Assembly: GCA_003142355.1 (NCBI GenBank)
Contig: PLMF01000169.1
Coordinates: 3,572 to 20,979 of the forward strand
DNA length: 17,408 nucleotides
From: Bryobacterales bacterium
GTDB lineage: Bacteria > Acidobacteriota > Terriglobia > Bryobacterales > Bryobacteraceae
Direction of reading: 5' to 3'
The position numbers and the translations under genes are program-made. Shown here piece after piece: positions 3,936 through 14,459 of this stretch; positions within the stretch are counted from its first letter, which is position 1, and the number at the start of each line of letters is the position of its first letter. Below the pieces are notes generated by a model. It saw only the letters and a list, made by a program, of their open reading frames with translations. It was not told the DNA's origin and did no database searches.

Positions 3936-5144
3936 CTACCCCCGAACTCCGAACGACGGCAGCGGAGCGGCACGCCGCCGGTTGCGGATCGAGGCGAAAT
4001 CAAATTTCACTGCGGCAATGGAATCGCCAACCACTTCGATTCGGCTCAGGTCGCGGGTGCCGATCCCCGCGTCTTCGGCCAATTGCGGAGTGCTGTCGCA
4101 GCCCTCGAACGGCGGCATGCCGTGCACGGCTAACGGATCGAACCCCATCACGGCCATCGCCACCGCATCGGTGTTCACCGGGTTCAGGCCGGCGACGATC
4201 ACGCCGGGAGCCGCAGGCTGCAGATCTTCGCGAATCCACGGGCCTTCGCCGCCCGTCATGCTCTTGACGCCTTCCACAATCGCGAGGTGAATCGGGCGGG
4301 CAGCCACAAGATCGACGACGGCGCGAGGCACGCGCCACGTATCCCTGCGCGGCGACTTCGGATCCTTCTCCTGGGGGGCGCTCTTGGATGGCTGGCGATT
4401 TCCCGTGTGAACAGGAGTGCGTCCGCCTTTGGGTATTTCCGAGGGTTCGTCGATTCCCGCGCCCGCGCCGTAGATGGTGCATGGGGTCAGCCCGAACGAG
4501 TTCTTCATCGACAGCGTGATGCCCGCGGTGAAATGTTCCTTTAACTTGGCCAGGCTCACGAAGACATCGCAGTCTTCATACGAGTGGTTCAGGTCGAAAG
4601 CCGGATACAGGTAACCGCCGAAGGGCACGGTCAAGCGCGAATACCTCTTGCCCCTGCCCAGATAGTTGGTGTTTTCGAACTCGACGTTGGGAGCGGCGCC
4701 CAGAATGTCGCGCGGTTCCCAATTGGCGCGCAGCAGGACCTCTTCTATCGGGTCCGCCGTGCCTGAAGGGCTCTCCAGCAAGCGGATTCGCCGCGCGCCG
4801 GCCTGCCCCATCAGGTGCACGCTGGCGGCAATGACCGCAGGATGAGTGTAGTGCGTGTCCTCCAGGGGCAGGTAGCCGAGCCTGTAAGTGGGCGCGCCGG
4901 TAAGGTTGATTTTGATGGCCACCGTTTTGCCCTTTACCAACCGTCCCAAGCCGCCCAATTGATCGAACATTCTCTCGAGGGTGGACAGCAGCTCTCCGGG
5001 ATTGTAGGTCTTACACCCGGCCACCGCCACGGGTGCAGCGGGCGCCGCGGCGGCGAGCACATGCGATGAACCGGCCACATATGCGCCGGCGGCCGCCGTC
5101 GCGGTCCTCCGCAGCCATTCTCTGCGTGTATGCAGCTTTTGCAT
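3936..5144 (-). CDS. Tat-exported DUF362 domain protein
   Basis: 402 residues. The N-terminus (TRREWLRRTATAAAGAYVAG) is a twin-arginine signal, so a folded, probably cofactor-bearing protein is exported. The body matches DUF362: KTVAIKINLTG (~73-83), SLAKLKEHFTAGITLSMKNSFG region (~197-218, the family's K-x-K-x-H ... T-x-x-KN-x-x-G signature) and GLNPVNTDAVAMAVMGFDP (~319-337). Some DUF362 proteins carry ferredoxin-type Fe-S clusters; no CxxCxxC cluster is present here. Molecular function of the family is not settled. The start is supported by AGAGGAAG at 5150-5157, 5 nt from the ATG. It lies 21 nt after the upstream stop codon and is the last intact gene of the receptor operon, so it is likely co-expressed with the sugar-acid enzymes. 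Confidence 0.85.
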   Translation of the reverse strand: MQKLHTRREWLRRTATAAAGAYVAGSSHVLAAAAPAAPVAVAGCKTYNPGELLSTLERMFDQLGGLGRLVKGKTVAIKINLTGAPTYRLGYLPLEDTHYTHPAVIAASVHLMGQAGARRIRLLESPSGTADPIEEVLLRANWEPRDILGAAPNVEFENTNYLGRGKRYSRLTVPFGGYLYPAFDLNHSYEDCDVFVSLAKLKEHFTAGITLSMKNSFGLTPCTIYGAGAGIDEPSEIPKGGRTPVHTGNRQPSKSAPQEKDPKSPRRDTWRVPRAVVDLVAARPIHLAIVEGVKSMTGGEGPWIREDLQPAAPGVIVAGLNPVNTDAVAMAVMGFDPLAVHGMPPFEGCDSTPQLAEDAGIGTRDLSRIEVVGDSIAAVKFDFASIRNRRRAAPLPSFGVRG

Positions 5145-5165
5145 CCCGACTTCCTCTTCCCTATC

Positions 5166-6395
5166 CTAAATATCGAGCTCCACGGCGGCATACTGCGGCA
5201 CCGCGGGCAAATGCATCTCCGCCCCACCCTTCTGCGGCACCAAGTCCAGCTTAGTGGCGCCGGGACTTCCGGGAATATACATCTTCGCCGCGCGATAGCG
5301 CCCGGCTACGCGCACTGTGGCTGAATCGGGGTTGCGGTCCGCGTAGAACAAAAGGTGTACCAGGGCCTGTTTGCCATCCGGTGCCATCGTGCAGAACGAA
5401 CCAGCGGCGCCGCCGTTCCAGAATCGGACCAGATCGTAGCGGTGACTCACCATTACCACCGACTCGGCGGCCCACACCCACGGATCGTCGGGGTCGGCAG
5501 TGGACACCGCGACCCTCCCTTTTCCGAGAGAGGACAAACGGTAGCGCGGGTTCTGGTCGCTCTTGAGAGGAGTGCCTCCGACTTCGCCCCACTTGGGCAG
5601 CGCGATCAACAGCCCACCCGCTTCCACAAATGCCAGGACCTGCTTGCGCAGAGCGGGCGCGGGCGGCTGCGTGTCGACGTAGATTGCCGCGCGCAGGGAG
5701 GCGAACGAAGTTTCCGAGATCGCAGCCTTCGGCAGAATGCGGCAATGCTGGCCCACGCGAGCCAGTAGGTTCAACAGTTCCCGGCTGAAGAACTCGTTAT
5801 CGCCGGTGAAGTCCGAAACCACTCCCACCACGGCCATGGGCCGATAGGCCGCCCAGGCTTTGTGTGCGGCGAAGAAGCCTGCCGTGGCCGCCAGTTTCCT
5901 CCACTTGGCCATTGCATCGGACTTGCCCGCTGCCAGGGACGCGGCGAGCGGGTTGTCGAGCGAGACGATCCACCGGCCTCCATAAGCCGCGCTGTCGGCA
6001 ACGGCGATCAGGTAGCCGGCGTCGGTGATGAGCGTGTTGCCGGGAGGTTCAGCCTCAACCCAAACGTCGGCGTCGGAGTGAAGCGCGGTCGCCAGCCGGA
6101 TGGCCCAGCCGTTGGAGTCCACCCACGGCCTGCCGGTAGGCCCGGCGTCGGTTCCAGTGCCGGCCCGAGCCGTTTGCACGCCCGGCCATGGTCCTTTGAC
6201 GATCTCGACCTCAGACGGCGGCGCTCCGGATTCCGATAGATGGAATCCATCCCGCACGGCGCGGGACCGCACCGCCGTCAGTCCGGGGGCATTGCCGATA
6301 ATGAGGGAGTCGATGGCGGTGCCTTTCAACAGATCGAGCAAATTGGGATCTGTCCACGTATCCGGCCATCGCATCGGGGTCCACTGAGCAGTCAT
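5166..6395 (-). CDS. Protein of unknown function with GATase-like/hydrolase-accessory fold
   Basis: 409 residues from the ATG at 6395, preceded by GAGAG 5 nt upstream; a longer reading would run into the preceding gene. I do not recognise a named family. Residues ~187-268 (VVGVVSDFTGDNEFFSREL ... LRAAIYVDTQPPAP ... LAFVEAGGLLIALPKWG) look like an alpha/beta class-I glutamine-amidotransferase-like domain, the type used as the trimerisation domain of GH42 and related glycoside hydrolases, followed by a probable beta-sandwich (~285-409). The N-terminal ~180 residues contain W-rich and beta-rich sequence. No catalytic Cys-His-Glu triad is obvious. Unlike its operon neighbours it shows no signal peptide. 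It starts 32 nt after the RraA-like gene and ends 21 nt before the DUF362 gene. A role in handling carbohydrate is inferred from context only. Confidence 0.7.
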   Translation of the reverse strand: MTAQWTPMRWPDTWTDPNLLDLLKGTAIDSLIIGNAPGLTAVRSRAVRDGFHLSESGAPPSEVEIVKGPWPGVQTARAGTGTDAGPTGRPWVDSNGWAIRLATALHSDADVWVEAEPPGNTLITDAGYLIAVADSAAYGGRWIVSLDNPLAASLAAGKSDAMAKWRKLAATAGFFAAHKAWAAYRPMAVVGVVSDFTGDNEFFSRELLNLLARVGQHCRILPKAAISETSFASLRAAIYVDTQPPAPALRKQVLAFVEAGGLLIALPKWGEVGGTPLKSDQNPRYRLSSLGKGRVAVSTADPDDPWVWAAESVVMVSHRYDLVRFWNGGAAGSFCTMAPDGKQALVHLLFYADRNPDSATVRVAGRYRAAKMYIPGSPGATKLDLVPQKGGAEMHLPAVPQYAAVELDI

Positions 6396-6427
6396 GGATT
6401 CTCTCGAGACATCCTTCGTGCCGGCGG

Positions 6428-7375
6428 TTACCGGCCGCTGCGAATCTCTTCCAGGCGCTTCTTGAGGTACTCGTCGTACTCCTTGCGCAGAGCGGGGTCC
6501 TTCGGCGAGCTGTAAATGTCGCTCGATTTGTACTTGCCTTCGTCGAATTTCTTGCGGGTCCACTCGTCGTGGATGTGTAAGGTATCGGCTCGGTCCAGGA
6601 CATCCTGGACAAGTTGCGGAGGGATGAACGCCACACCCTCGCGGTCACCTACCACGACGTCGCCGGGCATAACCGTGACATCGCCGATCCGTATGGGAAC
6701 GTCGACTGCCGAAAGCGTGACGCCCCCAATCGCGCTTGGGTGCACGGATCGATAATACGCCGGCATATCCATATCGGCGATCCCCTGCAGGTCGCGCATC
6801 GCGCCATCCACTACCAGTCCGCCGGTCTTGGTGGCTTTCATGATGTAGTAAAACAGGTTGTCGCCGACGATCGTGCCGCCCTCCTTCCTTCCCAAGAGGT
6901 CGACCACCAGGACGTCTCCGGGCTGCAGCATGTCGATGACAGTTTGGTTCTTCAGCGTGTCGATGCCTCTTTCCTTAGCCTTGGCATTCACCACGGCGTC
7001 AAGATCCGGGCGCGCCGGCATGAATGCCATAGTCACGGCCCGGCCCACCAGCATCTTTCCAGGGTGCAGAACCTGCCAGCCGTCGGTGTACTGGCTATAG
7101 GGGCTGCCGCGGCCAGCGCCGCCCGCCCCGCCGGGTCCCGCGCCGCCGCCGAAGTTGAAGGTGATTTCCTCCATCGAAAGGCCGCGCGCCCGCGCGAGCA
7201 TGATGTCAGGGACTTTGGGCCGGCCGTCCGGGAACCGATCTCCGGTCCAGGCCTTGGTGTAGTCGACCATCTGATCCCTGGTCCAGATCCATAGTTGGGC
7301 ATGAGCCATTGGGGGTGCAAGGAAAGCCGCCAGGCAGCCGCCGGCCAACAAGCCAGTCAGTCGTTTCATCGTCAT
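6428..7375 (-). CDS. Exported RraA-like protein (2-oxo-acid aldolase family)
   Basis: 315 residues from the ATG at 7375, chosen because AAAGGA (7381-7386) lies 5 nt upstream; the in-frame ATG at 7369 is an alternative and the codons above lack support. The start gives a Sec signal peptide (MKRLTGLLAGGCLAAFLAPPMAHAQ). The core is the RraA/HMG-CHA aldolase fold: LQPGDVLVVD, GGTIVGDNL (~166-174), GGLVVDGAMRD (~185-195, holding the family's pyruvate-binding Arg and metal-binding Asp) and MPGDVVVGDREGVAFIP. Relatives cleave 4-hydroxy-2-oxo acids to pyruvate, or in E. coli bind RNase E. The active-site residues being present favours an enzyme. Odd points are export, a Gly-rich insertion (~75-92) and a long charged C-terminal tail. 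The gap to the preceding gene is 141 bp with a stem-loop. Confidence 0.85.
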   Translation of the reverse strand: MTMKRLTGLLAGGCLAAFLAPPMAHAQLWIWTRDQMVDYTKAWTGDRFPDGRPKVPDIMLARARGLSMEEITFNFGGGAGPGGAGGAGRGSPYSQYTDGWQVLHPGKMLVGRAVTMAFMPARPDLDAVVNAKAKERGIDTLKNQTVIDMLQPGDVLVVDLLGRKEGGTIVGDNLFYYIMKATKTGGLVVDGAMRDLQGIADMDMPAYYRSVHPSAIGGVTLSAVDVPIRIGDVTVMPGDVVVGDREGVAFIPPQLVQDVLDRADTLHIHDEWTRKKFDEGKYKSSDIYSSPKDPALRKEYDEYLKKRLEEIRSGR

Positions 7376-7424
7376 ATCTTTCCTTTGGAACATTCGCTTC
7401 GTGGACCGCCGTTCAGGCCGCCTC

Positions 7425-7461
7425 CGTTCCGGGCCGCTTCACTGGCACGCGGTCCGGAACG
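7425..7461. promoter_or_regulatory. Intercistronic stem-loop
   Basis: Arms 7425-7437 and 7449-7461 form an 8-bp plus 4-bp stem with one A/C mismatch in the minus-strand transcript and an 11-nt loop. It lies between the mannonate dehydratase-like stop and the RraA-like start, in an operon whose other gaps are about 20-32 nt. No T-run follows, so mRNA processing, stabilisation or partial attenuation is more likely than termination. Confidence 0.45.
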
Positions 7462-7516
7462 AGCCAGCGTTCCGTCACGGAAACTACGGGAGCGGCGGCT
7501 GCGAAGCCGGCCGGTG

Positions 7517-8638
7517 TCATCCATTGCCCGTTAACGCCGCCTGCATCATCGCCCTGGCATAACCGACATTGAATACGTAAGCAGCGTATCCGCCGCCCCC
7601 TGGGTAGCCGCGCAAGCCGCCAGACGCCTTGGTTGCTTCACGGTCGTAGTCAATGGCCCGCGGGTGCTCCGGAAAGACCAGGCGCGGGTACTTCTGCCGT
7701 ACCAGTTCCTTCATCACGAGGAACATGTTGTTCTCACCCTCGTCGATGAATACCTCCGTGTACCGCTCGTACGGCTTTTGCACGCGGACATTCCGGAAAT
7801 GCACGTGATTCATGCGGTCCTTCTGGCCGAAGTACCGGCAGACCTCTACCGGATCGTGCCCCATTTCCCGTGTCACCCCGCAATCGAACGTGATGCCGTT
7901 GGATTTGCTGGGAACGATATCGACGAGCCGCTTCCAGCCTTCGACGCTCCCCATGATCTGTTGAGAGCCGCGGCTAAGAGGCGCCGGCGGATCGTTTGGA
8001 TGCAGCGCCATTCGCACGCCCGCCTTTTCGGCAACCGGGATCACGGCTTTGAGGAAGTATGTGATGTTGTTCCAGATTTCCTCCAGATTGTGAGCGCCTT
8101 CTTCCGGAAGCGGAGGCAGGTTCTTCATGCGCTCGTAATCGAATCCCGTGTTACCCACCCCGGAACGGCCGGGCTCCTCGAAGTACCCCTCCATGGCGCG
8201 GTGCGCGTACCAGTTGTATTCCACGACGGGCAGGCCTGCGTTGCCGGCCGTCCGGAGGGACTGCTGGACCTTCTCAATTTCCTCATCGCGGCCGGGCCTT
8301 CCGTAGATCGCATTCGGGAATCCGACGATCATCATGTTGGCAAGGGTGAGACCGCCGGATTTTAATGTGTCCATGCGGGACCGTATGGCCGCTTCGGTCC
8401 AGGGGATCGGCGGCCCGGACATCAGGACGTGATTGACGCCGATCTGCTTCAGCGCGCGCATGCCGGCATCGTTCATCGTGTCCTGCGAGAGCGAAAGCGC
8501 GATCTTCGGTGTGTTCGGGCCTTCGCCGGGCATCCCGTGCGGGACCGTCTCCGCCGGTGCGGGAGCCGCTATCGATGGGAGCAGTGCCGCGGCGCCCGTA
8601 CCTTTGAGAACGGCCCTGCGTGAAAAACGCGAGTTCAT
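7517..8638 (-). CDS. Tat-exported mannonate dehydratase-like TIM-barrel protein
   Basis: 373 residues from the ATG at 8638 (AGGAGA 10 nt upstream; an in-frame GTG 6 nt further up is an alternative). A twin-arginine signal (SRRAVLKGTGAAALLP) opens the protein. The rest resembles UxuA-type mannonate dehydratase (D-mannonate to 2-keto-3-deoxygluconate plus water), with MALHPNDPP (His213), GITFDCGVTREMG (Cys253), HVHFRNV (His278/280), VFIDEGENNMF and a C-terminal GGGGYAAYVFNVGYARAM. His and Cys at these places correspond to the metal ligands of the family. The family's late PDHG motif appears as PEHP (Glu324-His325), a conservative change at a probable ligand. UxuA is normally cytoplasmic; Tat export of a pre-folded metalloenzyme is unusual. 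A related xylose-isomerase-like epimerase function cannot be excluded. It sits 29 nt behind the receptor. Confidence 0.8.
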   Translation of the reverse strand: MNSRFSRRAVLKGTGAAALLPSIAAPAPAETVPHGMPGEGPNTPKIALSLSQDTMNDAGMRALKQIGVNHVLMSGPPIPWTEAAIRSRMDTLKSGGLTLANMMIVGFPNAIYGRPGRDEEIEKVQQSLRTAGNAGLPVVEYNWYAHRAMEGYFEEPGRSGVGNTGFDYERMKNLPPLPEEGAHNLEEIWNNITYFLKAVIPVAEKAGVRMALHPNDPPAPLSRGSQQIMGSVEGWKRLVDIVPSKSNGITFDCGVTREMGHDPVEVCRYFGQKDRMNHVHFRNVRVQKPYERYTEVFIDEGENNMFLVMKELVRQKYPRLVFPEHPRAIDYDREATKASGGLRGYPGGGGYAAYVFNVGYARAMMQAALTGNG

Positions 8639-8667
8639 GTCCACGTTATCTCCTGACATACACCTGG

Positions 8668-11600
8668 TTAAAAAGTCAGCCGCAACGCCATCTGGATCAG
8701 CCTGGGGGTATTCAACTGCCCGGAGACCAAACCAAACTGCGCGCTACCGAAGGTGTTCCCTGGCGGATTAAACTGCACGCGGTTGAACAGGTTGAAGATT
8801 TCCGCCCGGTAGGAAAGCGAGAAGCGCTCTGTGATCTTGGTGTCCTTGGTGAGCGAAAAGTCCCAGTTGTTGATTCCGTGGGTGCGCGCGTGCGAGTCGG
8901 CACGGGCCTCGTCGCCGAACCCGAACGACGAGGGCTGCGAGTAGCAGGACGTGTTGAACCACTGGCTCAACTTCGCCTGCGCCGCGCCTCCGATCGCCGG
9001 ATTGCAGCCGGCGGTGATGTTCGGCCGCGGCGGTCCACCATTAAAGTACGTGCTGATGGAAGTCGGCTGTGCCAGCAGCGGGATCGGGAAGCCCGACTGG
9101 AAGGTCGTGATGCCGCTGACTCCCCAGCCGGAAACGAGCTTGTCCACGACTCCAGTCGCGCCGGGGAGGAGTTTCTTCCCTTTTCCAACAGGCAGCGGCA
9201 ACACATATGCCGCCACCCCCCGGAAGGGCGCGTTATAACTGAGTTCCGAGCGCTCCCCACGAAGGTTGTAATAATCCTGGATTTCGCCCGGCTGGTAATA
9301 CTCGTTGTAACCGGTCATGGTGTCGGCGTTGCCAATGTCCTTTGCGTACTCGAAGGAGACGAGTAGCGTGCCTCCATTGCTGAAGCGCTTCTGGACTCTC
9401 GACTGGAGAGCGTGGTACACCACGTCGAACCCCGCCGTGGTAGCGGAATAGACGCCGGTGTACTGCGGATAAGGTAGCAGAAGCTGGCCATATTGGACGG
9501 TCGGCAGCGACAGCGGACCATATTTGACGATGCCGTAAAACGGATTCTTCACCTGTTGGAGCAACTGGGTGCCCAGGGAGAGATCGGCGTAGGGGATCTG
9601 GTCGAAGCCCATGCCATTGCAGACGAGGCCGCCGGGAGCGTAGAGGTGCATGCCGCGGTTGCCCACATACGCCAGTTCCATCGAGAAACCGCTGCCCAGT
9701 TCCCGTTGGACGTCGAAGTTCCAGTTCACCATGTAGGGCGTGCGGTCGTTAGGGACATTGCTGACCACCAACTGCCCCAGAACGAGCGACTCGTAGTTGG
9801 CGTCCCGTAGCGGCAGCGGGATCAGGCCGCTGGGGTACGGGTTGCTGAACGACGCAATCGGTGTGAAGCCGCTGTCCTGCGTGGGCACCCATGGAGTCGC
9901 CGAGTTGTTGACGGGGCTGGCGTAAGGGTTCCCGTTTTGCACGGTCGTGCCGGGCGTATAGAAAACGCCGACCCCGGCCCGGATCACGGTCTTGTCGTTG
10001 GGACGCCAAGCTGCGCCGATGCGCGGGGAGAACAGCCTCCAGTGAGGCGCTTGGCTGAGCCGGCTGGGGTACCGCGTAGAGTTCACGAGCACCATGTCGC
10101 CGCCATAGTTCAAGCCTGCGGCCTGCAACGCGGGATTGGTGGCGCCGGGCAGCCAGACCGTGTTCCAGTCGTGTCTTTCGCTCCAGTACCCGGTGTATTC
10201 CCAACGCAACCCAAGCGTCAACGTGAGCTTGTTGCTGGCCCGGAACGTGTCATTGATATAGGCGCCGGCGTAGTGCTGTATGCCGTAGGGCGTATCGGCA
10301 TTAATCATGTTGCCGGCCTGGCCCAGACCCAAAAGATAAGATGCATAGGCGTTGCCGGTGTTGCCGGTGGAGAGCGGGTTGGCCGCCGTAAACGCGTTGG
10401 TGAAGTTGAAAAGATTGCCGTTGCCGGCTTCCTGCCCGTACGCCGCGATCTCGCGCCGCCACTCGCCTCCGAAATGCAGCGTGTGGCGGTTGATCGTCTT
10501 GGTGACGCCTCCACTGAGGGATTCGCTGTTGGAAATCTGCTGCAAAAACAGCGGTTGCATGCGATTTCCCCCCGGATTGTAGCCGGTCAATGTGGTCTCC
10601 GGCAGCTCCCTATGCACCAACTGGGAAACGGTGGCAGCGGGCCAACCGATTTCCTTGGTGAGGTCCAGGCCCATGTTCCATGCAGTGCGCATGGAGTAGT
10701 TTCGTAGAACCGAGAGGTTGATATCCAGCACCGTGCTTGGATTCAACGCATAGGTGTCCGCGATCACGCCGGAATCGGTCTGGGCGACGCTCCGGGTCTG
10801 CATGATGCCGCCGGTGCCGTAGGTGTCCGCTGGCTTCGTCCACGGGTTGACCGCCGTGAAACGGAAGAACAGGTGCTGTTTGTCGCTGGCGTTCACATCG
10901 ACTCGGGCACTTTCCTGATTCGCATCGGAGCCGGTGCTGTAGTTGAGCGTGAAATTATTCGTTAAGGCGGGCGAATTCGGAATGTTCCAGTACTTGTTGA
11001 GCAGCAGCGCCGTTGGGTCCAGCCGGTTGGATGGGATGATATTTCCAGGGAACGGTGTGCGGCCGGAGGTCACGCCGGCGGGACATGACGGGAGACCCTG
11101 CCCCCCGCAAGTTGTCGTCGCCGGATCGTAAACTACGTTGCTGATGGCCGAAAAGTTCCCGCCTCGTTCGGCGACGGTGGGGAAGGAATAAGTGGCGGTC
11201 GCGCCCGAGCGAACGCGGTTGCCTTCGTAACCCAGGAAGCCAAACACCCGGTTCTTGCGGATCGGTCCGCCCAGGGTGGTGCCGAACTGGTTCTGACTGT
11301 ATGCCGGTCGCGGCAGACCCGCCCGGTTGCTGAAGAAGGTGGAGGCGTTGAGGACTTTGTTGCGGAAATACTCGTACAGCGTGCCGTGATACTCGTTAGT
11401 GCCGGACTTGCTGGACAGGTTGACGACGCCATTGAGCGTACCGCCGTATTCTGGGCCCACGTTATGCGACATGACCTGGAATTCCAGCACCAGGTCCTGT
11501 ATGGGTTGGAACGCGGCGGTGTTGAGCTTGACGTTCATGAACGGAGCGCCGTCAAACCAGGTGACGCCCTGGTTCGCCAGGCCGCCGGAGATCTGGTAGT

Positions 11601-12162
11601 TCATCGTGCCGTTGGCGACCGCGTTGTTCTGCGGGATCACCCCCGGCGCTAGCGCGATGAGCGCGAATACGTTGCGCCCGTTGAGCGGCATATCCGTGAC
11701 GATTCGGCCCTCCACCATTTGGCCTTGGGTCGCGTTTTCGGTTTGCAGCAGAGGCGCCTGCGCCGTGACTTCCACTCGCTGGCCGACGTCGCCCAACTCC
11801 ATGATGCTGTCGATGCGGACCACGTTCTGGGTCTCCACTGGGACGGCATCGCGGGTCAGGTGCTTGAAGCCTGCCTTTTCGAATTCCACCTTATAGCTTC
11901 CCGGGACAAGGTTGACGAACTGATAGTTCCCATTGCCGTCGGTCTCGGCGGACCGGCGTTCGGCAGTCCCCAGATTTGTGAGGGATACCGCGGTCCCTGG
12001 GACACTGCCCCCGGTAGCGTCCGTGACGGTCCCGACGATGGAACCGTAGGACGTTTGGGCCGGCAAGGGCGCTGTGAACACTGCGAGCACAACGCTCAAG
12101 CCTAGAAAAAATGCGGATCGGCTCACCGATGCCGTGCGATGTGAGCACTTTATTAGCTCCAT
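8668..12162 (-). CDS. Oar-type TonB-dependent outer-membrane receptor
   Basis: 1164 residues from the ATG at 12162, fixed by GGAGG (12171-12175) 8 nt upstream. A signal peptide ends near PLPAQ (~35). Residues ~38-110 are a carboxypeptidase-regulatory-like beta-sandwich (GSIVGTVTDATGGSVPGTAV ... GNYQFVNLVPGSYKVEFEKAGF). A plug-like segment follows (VEVTAQAPLLQTENATQGQMV, VTDMPLNGRNVFALIALAPGV). The remainder is a long beta-barrel rich in aromatic and Asn/Gly strands, closing with MALRLTF, a terminal Phe typical of BAM-inserted barrels. Acidobacteria carry many such receptors for complex carbohydrate uptake; the substrate here is not visible but the neighbours suggest a uronate-containing glycan or sugar acid. 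It leads an operon of at least five genes and has its own promoter with a matching operator also found at the regulator gene. Confidence 0.92.
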   Translation of the reverse strand: MELIKCSHRTASVSRSAFFLGLSVVLAVFTAPLPAQTSYGSIVGTVTDATGGSVPGTAVSLTNLGTAERRSAETDGNGNYQFVNLVPGSYKVEFEKAGFKHLTRDAVPVETQNVVRIDSIMELGDVGQRVEVTAQAPLLQTENATQGQMVEGRIVTDMPLNGRNVFALIALAPGVIPQNNAVANGTMNYQISGGLANQGVTWFDGAPFMNVKLNTAAFQPIQDLVLEFQVMSHNVGPEYGGTLNGVVNLSSKSGTNEYHGTLYEYFRNKVLNASTFFSNRAGLPRPAYSQNQFGTTLGGPIRKNRVFGFLGYEGNRVRSGATATYSFPTVAERGGNFSAISNVVYDPATTTCGGQGLPSCPAGVTSGRTPFPGNIIPSNRLDPTALLLNKYWNIPNSPALTNNFTLNYSTGSDANQESARVDVNASDKQHLFFRFTAVNPWTKPADTYGTGGIMQTRSVAQTDSGVIADTYALNPSTVLDINLSVLRNYSMRTAWNMGLDLTKEIGWPAATVSQLVHRELPETTLTGYNPGGNRMQPLFLQQISNSESLSGGVTKTINRHTLHFGGEWRREIAAYGQEAGNGNLFNFTNAFTAANPLSTGNTGNAYASYLLGLGQAGNMINADTPYGIQHYAGAYINDTFRASNKLTLTLGLRWEYTGYWSERHDWNTVWLPGATNPALQAAGLNYGGDMVLVNSTRYPSRLSQAPHWRLFSPRIGAAWRPNDKTVIRAGVGVFYTPGTTVQNGNPYASPVNNSATPWVPTQDSGFTPIASFSNPYPSGLIPLPLRDANYESLVLGQLVVSNVPNDRTPYMVNWNFDVQRELGSGFSMELAYVGNRGMHLYAPGGLVCNGMGFDQIPYADLSLGTQLLQQVKNPFYGIVKYGPLSLPTVQYGQLLLPYPQYTGVYSATTAGFDVVYHALQSRVQKRFSNGGTLLVSFEYAKDIGNADTMTGYNEYYQPGEIQDYYNLRGERSELSYNAPFRGVAAYVLPLPVGKGKKLLPGATGVVDKLVSGWGVSGITTFQSGFPIPLLAQPTSISTYFNGGPPRPNITAGCNPAIGGAAQAKLSQWFNTSCYSQPSSFGFGDEARADSHARTHGINNWDFSLTKDTKITERFSLSYRAEIFNLFNRVQFNPPGNTFGSAQFGLVSGQLNTPRLIQMALRLTF

Positions 12163-12234
12163 GGTCGATTCCTCCAAGAAAGTCACTTTCGTGATCAACT
12201 TCCCCTGGGATTCCGAATTCGTGATCCAAGGCCC

Positions 12235-12459: not shown

Positions 12460-12488
12460 ATGCTATGCTCACTCAGAAAGCCTGTCAA
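12460..12488 (-). promoter_or_regulatory. Sigma70-type promoter of the receptor operon
   Basis: The minus strand has a perfect -35 TTGACA (12488 to 12483), a 17-bp spacer and a -10 TAGCAT (12465 to 12460, 4 of 6 match). Transcription would start near 12453. The matching 30-bp inverted repeat ends one base before the -35 element, the usual place for an activator. Confidence 0.65.
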
Positions 12489-12489
12489 G

Positions 12490-12519
12490 GTGAATTCCGG
12501 AAGGTTAACCGTGATTCAC
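12490..12519. promoter_or_regulatory. Candidate operator 1 (receptor promoter)
   Basis: A 30-bp dyad, GTGAAT-N18-ATTCAC, centred about 50 bp upstream of the predicted start site. The same arms at the same spacing recur at 13934-13963. A second dyad GTGA-T-TCAC lies at its right end (12511-12519), inside a TTAAC...GTTAG frame (12505-12526) that also matches the other operator. Confidence 0.5.
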
Positions 12520-12566
12520 TTGTTAGTTAACTGATTGATCCGTCAAAGGTTGGCCTGAAGGTGTGT

Positions 12567-12594
12567 GAAAACGACCGCTGCGCTAGGCTAGCGG
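12567..12594 (-). terminator. Probable intrinsic terminator of the regulator gene
   Basis: Starting 13 nt after the regulator stop, the minus strand reads CCGCT, a 10-nt loop, AGCGG, then TCGTTTTC (T-run in 12574-12567). The loop contains a nested CGCTAG/CTAGCG palindrome (12581-12593). The stem is short, so strength is uncertain, but it would insulate the receptor operon from regulator transcription. Confidence 0.4.
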
Positions 12595-12607
12595 GGCGAC
12601 GCGCAGA

Positions 12608-13906
12608 TCATTTCGAGTAAACGGCCCTGACCGAAACCTGACCGGGAGATCCGGCCAGCGCGATCGTCTCGATTAGTATCTCCAGGTGAGATTGCCTGCC
12701 CGGTTTCGGCGAGGGTATGCTCGTGCGGGCCAGGGACTCGGCATTGCGGCGCGGCCCCGACAGGAACTCCCAGGCCGCCTCTGAGCCTTCCATGTTGGTG
12801 CCTTCGATAATCAAGACCCGACTGGAAGCCCCGCTGGCAGTTGTCCGGTCGAGCAGTGCGACCACGGCGAAAGCCGGCCCCGGTTCGCCATTCGGACCGC
12901 CACTGGCATAAACATTCCGGTCACCCGGCTTGGCCTGGGTGTTCCGAAACAGCAGGACTTTGTGAATATCGTCCCATTCAGAGCGGAACACCAAATCGTG
13001 CTCGAAGAGATCCACCCATGGATTCGACATCCGGCTGCCGACGAGCATCTGGTTACCTTCGGCAAGGTCGCGCATCTTCAAATCCCGGGCGTACCGCAGA
13101 GTATATCGCCACCGGTTGATCGCAGCCAAGTGCTCCATCTGCTGAGCCATCAGCATTGTCCAAAAGTTGGTCAACGGGCGCGCCCCGACGACGCTTACCC
13201 AGCGGGGGTCCTGCTTTGAAAGCCAACCGTTACTGAGGGGATAGCCGGGCTGAAGATAGTCCTCCAGTCTCAGGCGATCGCCGATGATGTCCTGAAAAGT
13301 CCCGTACGAACCGTCGCCCATGACGACGTTGACGGGCGAATCCGGTCCAAAAATGCTGGTAAGCAGCCACGGCTCGCGGTTGCCGGCGGACGGGGCCACA
13401 ACCGAGCGAAGCTGCCGGTTTTGCCACCAGAGCGCGGCGCACACTACACTCAGCACAATGGCTGCGGCGAGAGGCACCCACATCAGAAGCCGGCGATGCA
13501 GCGCCCCCGCCTGGGTGCCCGGACCATGGTCGTTTTCTTCCCCCGGTTGGGCGTAACTGGACGTGCCCGCATCCCGGAAAACAGGAACATAATTCCCTTT
13601 AGGGATCTCGATTACTAGAGGTTCGTGCCGGCCCTCGTCGCGGAAATACTCTTCCAAACGAAGGCGAAGCTGTCGAGCCTGCACGCGTACGATGCTGTCG
13701 TCCGAGGGGTTGTAATCGGACTTCCGCCCAAATACCGAAGACCCGATCTGGTGTTCGGTCAGCGCGTTCGTATGGCCGAGCAAGGTCTCCCGGCAGATGT
13801 GCAGAAGCAAATCCCGCAACCGAGCAGCCTTCTGGAACTGACGGCTGGCGGCAACGCGTTCTACGAGTTTCCACCGCGCGTCGGTGCGGACGTCGTTCTC
13901 TCCCAT
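12608..13906 (-). CDS. Membrane-spanning winged-helix transcriptional regulator
   Basis: 432 residues. Residues ~10-110 form an OmpR-like winged-helix domain of the kind common in Acidobacteria (LTEHQIGSSVFGRKSDYNP, SIVRVQARQLRLRLEEYF, then the wing IPKGNYVPVF). A linker with Pro/Gly leads to one membrane span (~139-161, LLMWVPLAAAIVLSVVCAALWW). About 270 residues then lie on the periplasmic side, including GDGSYGTFQDI, MLVGSRMSNPWVDLFE and IIEGTNMEGSEAAWEFL, which look like a ligand-sensing domain of unknown specificity. No kinase, receiver or phospho-acceptor region is present, so it should work as a one-component ToxR/CadC-like switch. It lies directly upstream of the receptor operon, and matching inverted repeats stand before both genes. 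The Shine-Dalgarno is weak (TGAG). Confidence 0.82.
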   Translation of the reverse strand: MGENDVRTDARWKLVERVAASRQFQKAARLRDLLLHICRETLLGHTNALTEHQIGSSVFGRKSDYNPSDDSIVRVQARQLRLRLEEYFRDEGRHEPLVIEIPKGNYVPVFRDAGTSSYAQPGEENDHGPGTQAGALHRRLLMWVPLAAAIVLSVVCAALWWQNRQLRSVVAPSAGNREPWLLTSIFGPDSPVNVVMGDGSYGTFQDIIGDRLRLEDYLQPGYPLSNGWLSKQDPRWVSVVGARPLTNFWTMLMAQQMEHLAAINRWRYTLRYARDLKMRDLAEGNQMLVGSRMSNPWVDLFEHDLVFRSEWDDIHKVLLFRNTQAKPGDRNVYASGGPNGEPGPAFAVVALLDRTTASGASSRVLIIEGTNMEGSEAAWEFLSGPRRNAESLARTSIPSPKPGRQSHLEILIETIALAGSPGQVSVRAVYSK

Positions 13907-13933
13907 AAGCTCAACACACTGTTAGGATTAACG

Positions 13934-13963
13934 GTGAATTACATGTTAATCGCATGAATTCAC
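13934..13963. promoter_or_regulatory. Candidate operator 2 (regulator promoter region)
   Basis: A 30-bp dyad with the same arms and spacing as operator 1: GTGAAT-N18-ATTCAC, centred ~42 bp before the regulator start codon. Its arms extend further (ACATG/CATG with a one-base offset). An overlapping TTAAC (13928-13932) ... GTTAA (13945-13949) pair also matches operator 1. Any promoter here would overlap the dyad, which would fit autoregulation; I could not pick a single convincing -35/-10 pair. Confidence 0.5.
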
Positions 13964-14163: not shown

Positions 14164-14459
14164 TTAGCCTGGTTTGCCCGCTGTGATCGCGATGAAGCTG
14201 GCCGCCACCAGCGCTATCCCGCGCTTAAGCCTCCCCGGCGCAACACCTGCGGCAAAGCCTCGACTCGGATGGTGGCGCCCAGGCATAGATAGAACACCGC
14301 CAGGATGGGAAGCGCCCCAGTGAACAGTGCGCCGGTGAACGATCCGAAAAAAGTCGCGGTGTTGGGAGCCACGGTAGCTATTACGGCTCCGGCGGCGAGC
14401 GGCGCCGCCATCATTCCACCCGGGATGCGCTCTATGGTTCGCTTGATCGGTATCTGCAT
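14164..14459 (-). pseudogene. kdgT: Truncated, frameshifted 2-keto-3-deoxygluconate permease
   Basis: The first 76 or so residues closely follow Kdg[57 protein letters not shown] (E. coli has IKRSIEKIPGGMM, YFGSFTNG...TGTVPILAVW, CMGASIKLSATGTVLRKSG). The reading frame then stops at 14214. A one-base frame change near RRGG continues [17 protein letters not shown] to a stop at 14164, matching the next KdgT membrane helix. The remaining ~220 residues of the ~327-residue family are missing. The ribosome site (AGGAGG, 5 nt before the ATG) is intact, so decay looks recent. KdgT is an inner-membrane proton symporter for 2-keto-3-deoxygluconate, the product of mannonate dehydratase, which ties the remnant to the neighbouring locus. 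The 182 bases upstream of it hold no gene I can recognise. Confidence 0.82.

Follow-up and report, generated by a model that had tools for sequence, protein, structure and literature searches.

Candidate 11-bp-phased operators of a membrane-anchored regulator encoded beside an Oar-like TonB-dependent receptor in a Bryobacterales genome

Introduction

The described regulators closest in architecture to the one considered here are ToxR and CadC, in which one protein, acting from the membrane, combines an N-terminal winged helix with one membrane span and a C-terminal domain. The targets of CadC are AT-rich, quasi-palindromic double sites, according to the available part of PMC5430869. A transmembrane transcription regulator has been defined as a single protein in which both a DNA-binding domain and one or more membrane spans are predicted, and Acidobacteriae are among the groups with more of these per genome (PMC10269533, available part).

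The DNA-binding half of OmpR/PhoB-family response regulators offers a second likeness, in its winged helix and in 11-bp direct repeats. A third is found in the polysaccharide loci of Bacteroidota, where SusR and the hybrid two-component regulators are membrane sensor-regulators encoded beside their TonB-dependent receptors, with many such pairs per genome. Acidobacteria are abundant in soil. Among the matches listed from the open-access literature, as far as titles and the beginnings of abstracts go, none gives an account of the regulator-receptor pairing or operator described below, and none dealing with Acidobacteria and such receptors appears to give an account of how the receptors are switched on.

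The locus lies in a 17,408-nucleotide stretch of Bryobacterales DNA, here called the window. Its regulator is like SusR and the hybrids in being a putative membrane sensor-regulator beside its receptor, in a family with many pairs per genome; unlike them, it is one-component, with no histidine-kinase or receiver domain by Pfam. It also departs from ToxR and CadC: the putative operator is an array of GTGAATTCAC at 11-bp pitch, set against the -35, whereas the Cad1 site lies at -153 to -113 (PMC5430869, available part); the apparent target is an Oar-like TonB-dependent receptor; the C-terminal domain is similar to parts of BcsB and to the N-terminal domain of GH67; and the whole protein has no Pfam match at E<=0.001.

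Materials and Methods

A protein search with the regulator gave 105 homologues, 33 (A1) and 12 (A2) of which were aligned; one of them, P0002, is 64% identical to the window regulator. A scan of genome contigs with the twelve-homologue alignment gave 66 loci (64 in Acidobacteriota, the others in Duganella and Bacteroidales), and a search of 200 genomes from a single family found about 122 regulator places, spread over 68 genomes and partly coinciding with the contig-scan loci; 80 of these places were used. Of 147 sources, 146 had a regulator match, from which 134 unique loci were obtained, window included, with duplicates and loci having less than 150 bp upstream left out. The A3 alignment has 42 rows (the window and 41 loci) and omits L063 (stop codon) and L059. 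Among the matches from 237 genomes of the family and 257 of the order, at the thresholds used, there were no orthologues above 43% identity; the DNA comparison reached relatives up to about 43% protein identity.

Results

The regulator and receptor genes of the window are in tandem, both on the minus strand, with the regulator 5' of the receptor and a gap of 445 bp between them. The annotated genes are:

12608..13906, minus strand: regulator ORF, 432 aa, ATG at 13906
8668..12162, minus strand: receptor gene, an Oar-like TonB-dependent receptor with CarboxypepD_reg (Pfam E 1e-17) and outer-membrane beta-barrel (OMP_b-brl_4, Pfam E 8e-197)
7517..8641, minus strand: UxuA-like gene, 3' of the receptor on the same strand
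6428..7393, minus strand: RraA-like gene, 3' of the receptor on the same strand
5166..6563, minus strand: 465-aa protein between the RraA-like and DUF362 genes, with no Pfam or NCBIfam match at E<=0.001
3936..5144, minus strand: DUF362 gene, 3' of the receptor on the same strand

The ATG at 12162 was our choice of receptor start; the ORF list has the same frame from a TTG at 12198. Judging by order and strand, the genes 3' of the receptor (3936..8641, minus) are possibly co-transcribed cargo. Upstream of the regulator, at 14214-14459 (minus), lies an N-terminal piece of a KdgT 2-keto-3-deoxygluconate permease (profile positions 1-74 of 305, E 4e-22), which ends early, as a gene remnant would, and together with the UxuA-like gene fits a uronate theme.

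In the regulator, residues 1-115 form an OmpR/PhoB-like winged helix, a single membrane span follows at about 140-160, and a periplasmic domain is predicted from about 175 to 432. The first two correspond to:

13562..13906, minus strand: DNA-binding domain, residues 1-115 (AF2 pLDDT 92.9), with predicted recognition helix 72-89, including Q76, and predicted wing 97-112
13427..13489, minus strand: membrane span, residues 140-160 (hydropathy maximum 2.45 at residues 140-159)

The eight best fold rows for the DNA-binding domain are all OmpR/PhoB-family DNA-binding domains, with no Foldseek match at E<=0.001 for either the whole protein or the domain; searching solved structures by sequence yielded no match at E<=1. 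The Pfam model Trans_reg_C (PF00486) is matched by 14 of the 42 aligned family rows at E<=10, the best at 3.6e-4; the window regulator does not reach its cut-off, and the N-terminal domain alone gave just UVR at E 0.26. With its winged-helix model, OmpR/PhoB-family top rows and hydropathy maximum, the protein has both parts by which transmembrane transcription regulators are defined in the available part of PMC10269533. Having no Pfam match, it would be overlooked by a Pfam-based survey of DNA-binding models.

An initial annotation had drawn attention to a dyad, GTGAAT-N18-ATTCAC, at both the receptor promoter and the regulator gene. The dyad is exact at 12490-12519 and 13934-13963, with no third copy in the window, and the second register of similarity reported with it (12505-12527 versus 13928-13950) is identical at 18 of 23 positions. 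The positions given relative to the two genes also hold: the first copy adjoins the -35 on the receptor strand, its centre about 52 bp 5' of the start predicted from the -10, and the second spans positions 28-57 bp before the regulator ATG at 13906, with its centre 42 bp before it. Its account of the context needs correction, however: since the two genes are in tandem, the sites belong to two separate promoter regions. As redefined below, the sites and the receptor promoter are:

12490..12537, minus strand: site 1, candidate phased operator array preceding the receptor promoter; ranked second in the window by three family matrices, by a thin margin
13928..13963, no strand assigned: site 2, candidate phased operator array preceding the regulator gene; ranked first in the window by the three family matrices, held-out score 13.5
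12460..12488, minus strand: predicted sigma-70-type receptor promoter, -35 TTGACA (12488-12483) and -10 TAGCAT (12465-12460), 17-bp spacer, 10/12 consensus matches

The repeat of the dyad is by itself weak evidence and does not go beyond chance. The zero matches expected for it are misleading, as the pattern was picked after inspection. Dyads with 6-bp arms recurring with the same arm and loop (0-30) number three in the window, against a mean of 0.57 in 40 shuffles, 18 of which hold at least one; the two upstream regions have no word longer than 8 bp in common, and shuffles reach 12. The weight of the case therefore rests on the comparison with the family.

Expectation-maximisation, started from over-represented 8-mers and run on 133 upstream regions with that of the window among them, gave one dominant motif, whose core 8-mer GAATTCAC is present in 31 of the 133. 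When the window was excluded and the search seeded with that motif, the result was GTGAATTCAC-N-GTGAATTCAC, in which palindromic 10-mers follow one another every 11 bp. What the loci conserve is a GTGAATTCAC-like palindrome in an 11-bp repeat, TT[CA]AC-N-GT[GT]AA, and the second register mentioned above is its core. Between half-sites on the same strand, the spacings with the strongest enrichment are 11 and 22 bp, and palindromes occur too; direct repeats one helical turn apart, a trait of OmpR/PhoB-type recognition, are thus present. The dyad with N18, as against the 11-bp array, is found in none of the 133 other loci (up to 360 bp scanned), with N19 in the related L020 and L041. It was dropped as the recognition unit because of this and because repeated dyads are frequent in shuffles; each of the dyads first noticed consists of one core arm and an outer element 20-21 bp away. 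The proposal that they mark operators of the membrane-anchored winged-helix regulator survives in altered form, for a phased array that stands above shuffles upstream of regulators and receptors.

In site 1 the core TTAACCGTGATTCAC occupies 12505-12519, with an additional GTTAGTTAAC at 12522-12531; the phased cores TTAACCGTGAT-TCACTTGTTAG run from 12505 to 12526. On the receptor strand AATTCAC (12496-12490) ends one base from the -35, giving the join AATTCAC-C-TTGACA. Site 2 has the core TTAACGGTGAA/TTACATGTTAA at 13928-13949 and the outer element ATGAATTCAC at 13954-13963.

In five-fold tests that left out entire protein clusters, 59 of 134 loci score at least 10, against 3.65 in dinucleotide shuffles, and 53 score at least 12, against 1.1; clusters with a member at 10 or above number 40 of 75, those without any 35. 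Three matrices built without the window place their best match over the 17.4 kb within 13919-13951 (scores 15.3-17.0), at the site 2 core, and their second within 12492-12525 (10.6-13.5), at the site 1 core, the latter only just ahead of the best unrelated place (10.6 against 10.5, 13.5 against 13.1 and 13.0 against 12.5). That the dyads are coincidental palindromes in AT-richer intergenic DNA would accord with this thin margin, with the unconserved N18 spacing and with the repeated dyads of such size in 18 of 40 shuffles; against it, the two cores take first and second place in 17.4 kb by matrices that had not seen them, and the AATTCAC-TTG join recurs in relatives. Coincidence is accordingly given very little credence, and given the family comparison both sites are probably real.

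The initial annotation had also held that a dyad common across the genome at random positions would speak against its reading. Here the bare 10-mer and the composite part company: GTGAATTCAC alone lies mostly elsewhere, whereas the composite array is well above shuffles. As a genome-wide marker the bare 10-mer was rejected, only 3 of 31 loci around its matches in six genomes being at a regulator. It is nonetheless about ten times commoner than its reversed control in those six genomes (32 versus 3 places, mostly away from regulators), and no paper in the open-access literature was found for it. The word TTCACNGTGAATTCAC, with up to 2 mismatches on both strands of 16 genomes, gave 202 matches against 26 for the reversed control. 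Five of 30 such loci are at a regulator-receptor promoter (L241, L245, L256, L261, L262); L257 is at a second receptor of the L165 locus, and L234 and L235 are inside receptor genes. This excess was dropped as operator evidence.

The predicted recognition helix may carry some information about the operator. Residue 76 is the best of 87 domain columns for operator score, whether scores are trained or held out, with held-out scores of about 12-16 for Q/E/H and about 5-8 for S/T/A (L002 was omitted from the residue tests). In phylogenetic contrasts over 131 loci the association persists (p 0.002); residue 76 is then just fifth of 89 columns, and it is therefore taken as supporting, not decisive, evidence, its role as sole determinant not being upheld. 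A search for an alternative operator of S/T/A/Y76 regulators (40 loci, 19 clusters) gave no convincing common motif.

Some further observations concern parts of the family. A clade of regulators with the recognition helix VRVTASDVR (L043, L044, L048, L050-L052, L054, L058, L062, L064) is mostly without the GTGAATTCAC array, with scores of 3.1-10.5; CAACGTTAG and GTAGCTAC, enriched in the pooled upstream regions, may represent a different operator of this clade. L002 and L126 have a regulator homologue with an early in-frame TAG and a GTGAATTC...ATTCAC site upstream.

For -10-like hexamers on the receptor strand there is an excess starting 33-35 bp from the array centre (cluster-weighted 5.8 in a 6-bp bin, mean 0.70), a peak that is absent at a stricter promoter threshold, where hexamers are too few. 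A join of the form TT[CTA]AC-N0,1-TTG occurs on this strand in 19 of 134 loci (11/75 clusters); the opposite strand has 2 and shuffles give 1.6. If a suitably spaced -10 is also required, 6 of 134 loci (5/75 clusters) remain, and none on the opposite strand or in shuffles. Site 1 of the window has the same AATTCAC-TTG join as some relatives. Receptor promoters outside the training regions, either tandem or farther off, score at least 10 in 11 of 31 cases, against 1.22 in shuffles, and the site again ends at TTG in L144, L158, L182 and L137. No consistent promoter-position peak was found on the regulator strand, so that autoregulation is weakly supported.

An array upstream of the -35 with a free spacer is the geometry of a class II activator. 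The same sites and regulator would also fit a receptor that is repressed until a signal releases the regulator, as a position against the -35 is open to a repressor as well. Against this, the array stops short of the -35 and does not cover the -35/-10 spacer, the -10-like hexamers noted above gather 33-35 bp from its centre on the receptor strand, and CadC, which is ToxR-like in architecture, is an activator (PMC5430869, available part). Repression of the receptor is considered unlikely, and activation is preferred.

Where regulator and receptor stand apart, their upstream regions can be compared directly. At L137, the DNA preceding a regulator and that preceding a receptor 4 kb from it have 25 identical bp; the regulator-side site there also runs into a TTG, on the opposite strand, and so may serve a divergent gene. 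At L165, 18 bp are common to the two upstream regions. In all, 7 of 36 separate pairs share a word longer than any of 20 shuffles, by a wide margin only at L137 and L165.

Most regulators have a receptor next to them. An Oar-like receptor lies divergently within 1.3 kb of the regulator start in 97 of the 133 other loci; in 8 it is in tandem as in the window, in 17 elsewhere in the sequence retrieved for the locus and in 7 there is none, the flank being too short to judge adjacency in 4 of the 133. Each of six genomes has 38 or more matches to the window receptor, up to at least 120, indicating a very large Oar-like family. As a control, 60 receptors were taken in listing order from five of the six (G065 was not sampled). 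A regulator was found within about 1.8 kb upstream in 10 and none adjacent in 50; the link thus runs from regulator to receptor.

Among these receptors, a score of at least 10 is reached by 4 of the 10 linked to an adjacent regulator and by 2 of the 50 that are not, some of the linked loci or their close relatives having been in the training set. At 9 or above the counts are 5 of 10 linked and 7 of 50 unlinked, with 0.6 and 2.6 in shuffles, and the TTG join is found in 1 of 10 and 1 of 50. Both unlinked receptors at 10 or above (L345, L329) have a regulator homologue 2-5 kb away, a range examined for these two alone. If the motif belonged to another, global factor for TonB-dependent receptors, with the adjacent regulator a bystander, its presence at many paralogous pairs would be expected, and the 7 of 50 unlinked receptors at 9 or above would find a place. 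The control argues against such a factor in the counts at 10 and above (2/50 against 4/10); moreover, a site is present at the regulator even when it is apart from the receptor (the window, L165 and, with the caveat above, L137), and operator score tracks a recognition-helix residue. A global factor is thus judged quite improbable.

Discussion

The reading we favor, and consider likely on the comparative evidence, is that both sites serve the window's own regulator, a membrane-anchored one-component protein, as operators through which it activates the receptor gene and autoregulates itself. The C-terminal domain would be periplasmic and would sense a nutrient related to the substrate of the receptor. 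On receiving the signal, winged helices would fill the array head-to-tail, one per 11-bp turn; those at site 1, next to the -35, would bring in RNA polymerase and turn on the receptor gene by class II activation, and those at site 2, near or inside the regulator's own promoter and leader, would bring about autoregulation, repression being slightly favored there by position. In most relatives the two genes diverge from a single intergenic region; in the window the genes are in tandem, hence two sites. As to the signal, a carbohydrate acid is a guess, prompted by the UxuA-like and RraA-like genes, the KdgT remnant and the GH67-like fold.

More tentatively, and with rather less than even confidence, the scheme may be extended to the phylum: part of the Oar-like receptors of Acidobacteriota could be under paralogous one-component membrane regulators, each with its own receptor, which read variants of one 11-bp-phased operator code, specificity coming from a few recognition-helix residues including 76. 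These would be a one-component counterpart of the sensor-regulator/receptor pairs of Bacteroidota.

A defined operator together with a defined regulator would provide a way to assign receptors to regulators from sequence, and the control sites of the regulator and receptor suggest how such bacteria may turn on one of many receptors.
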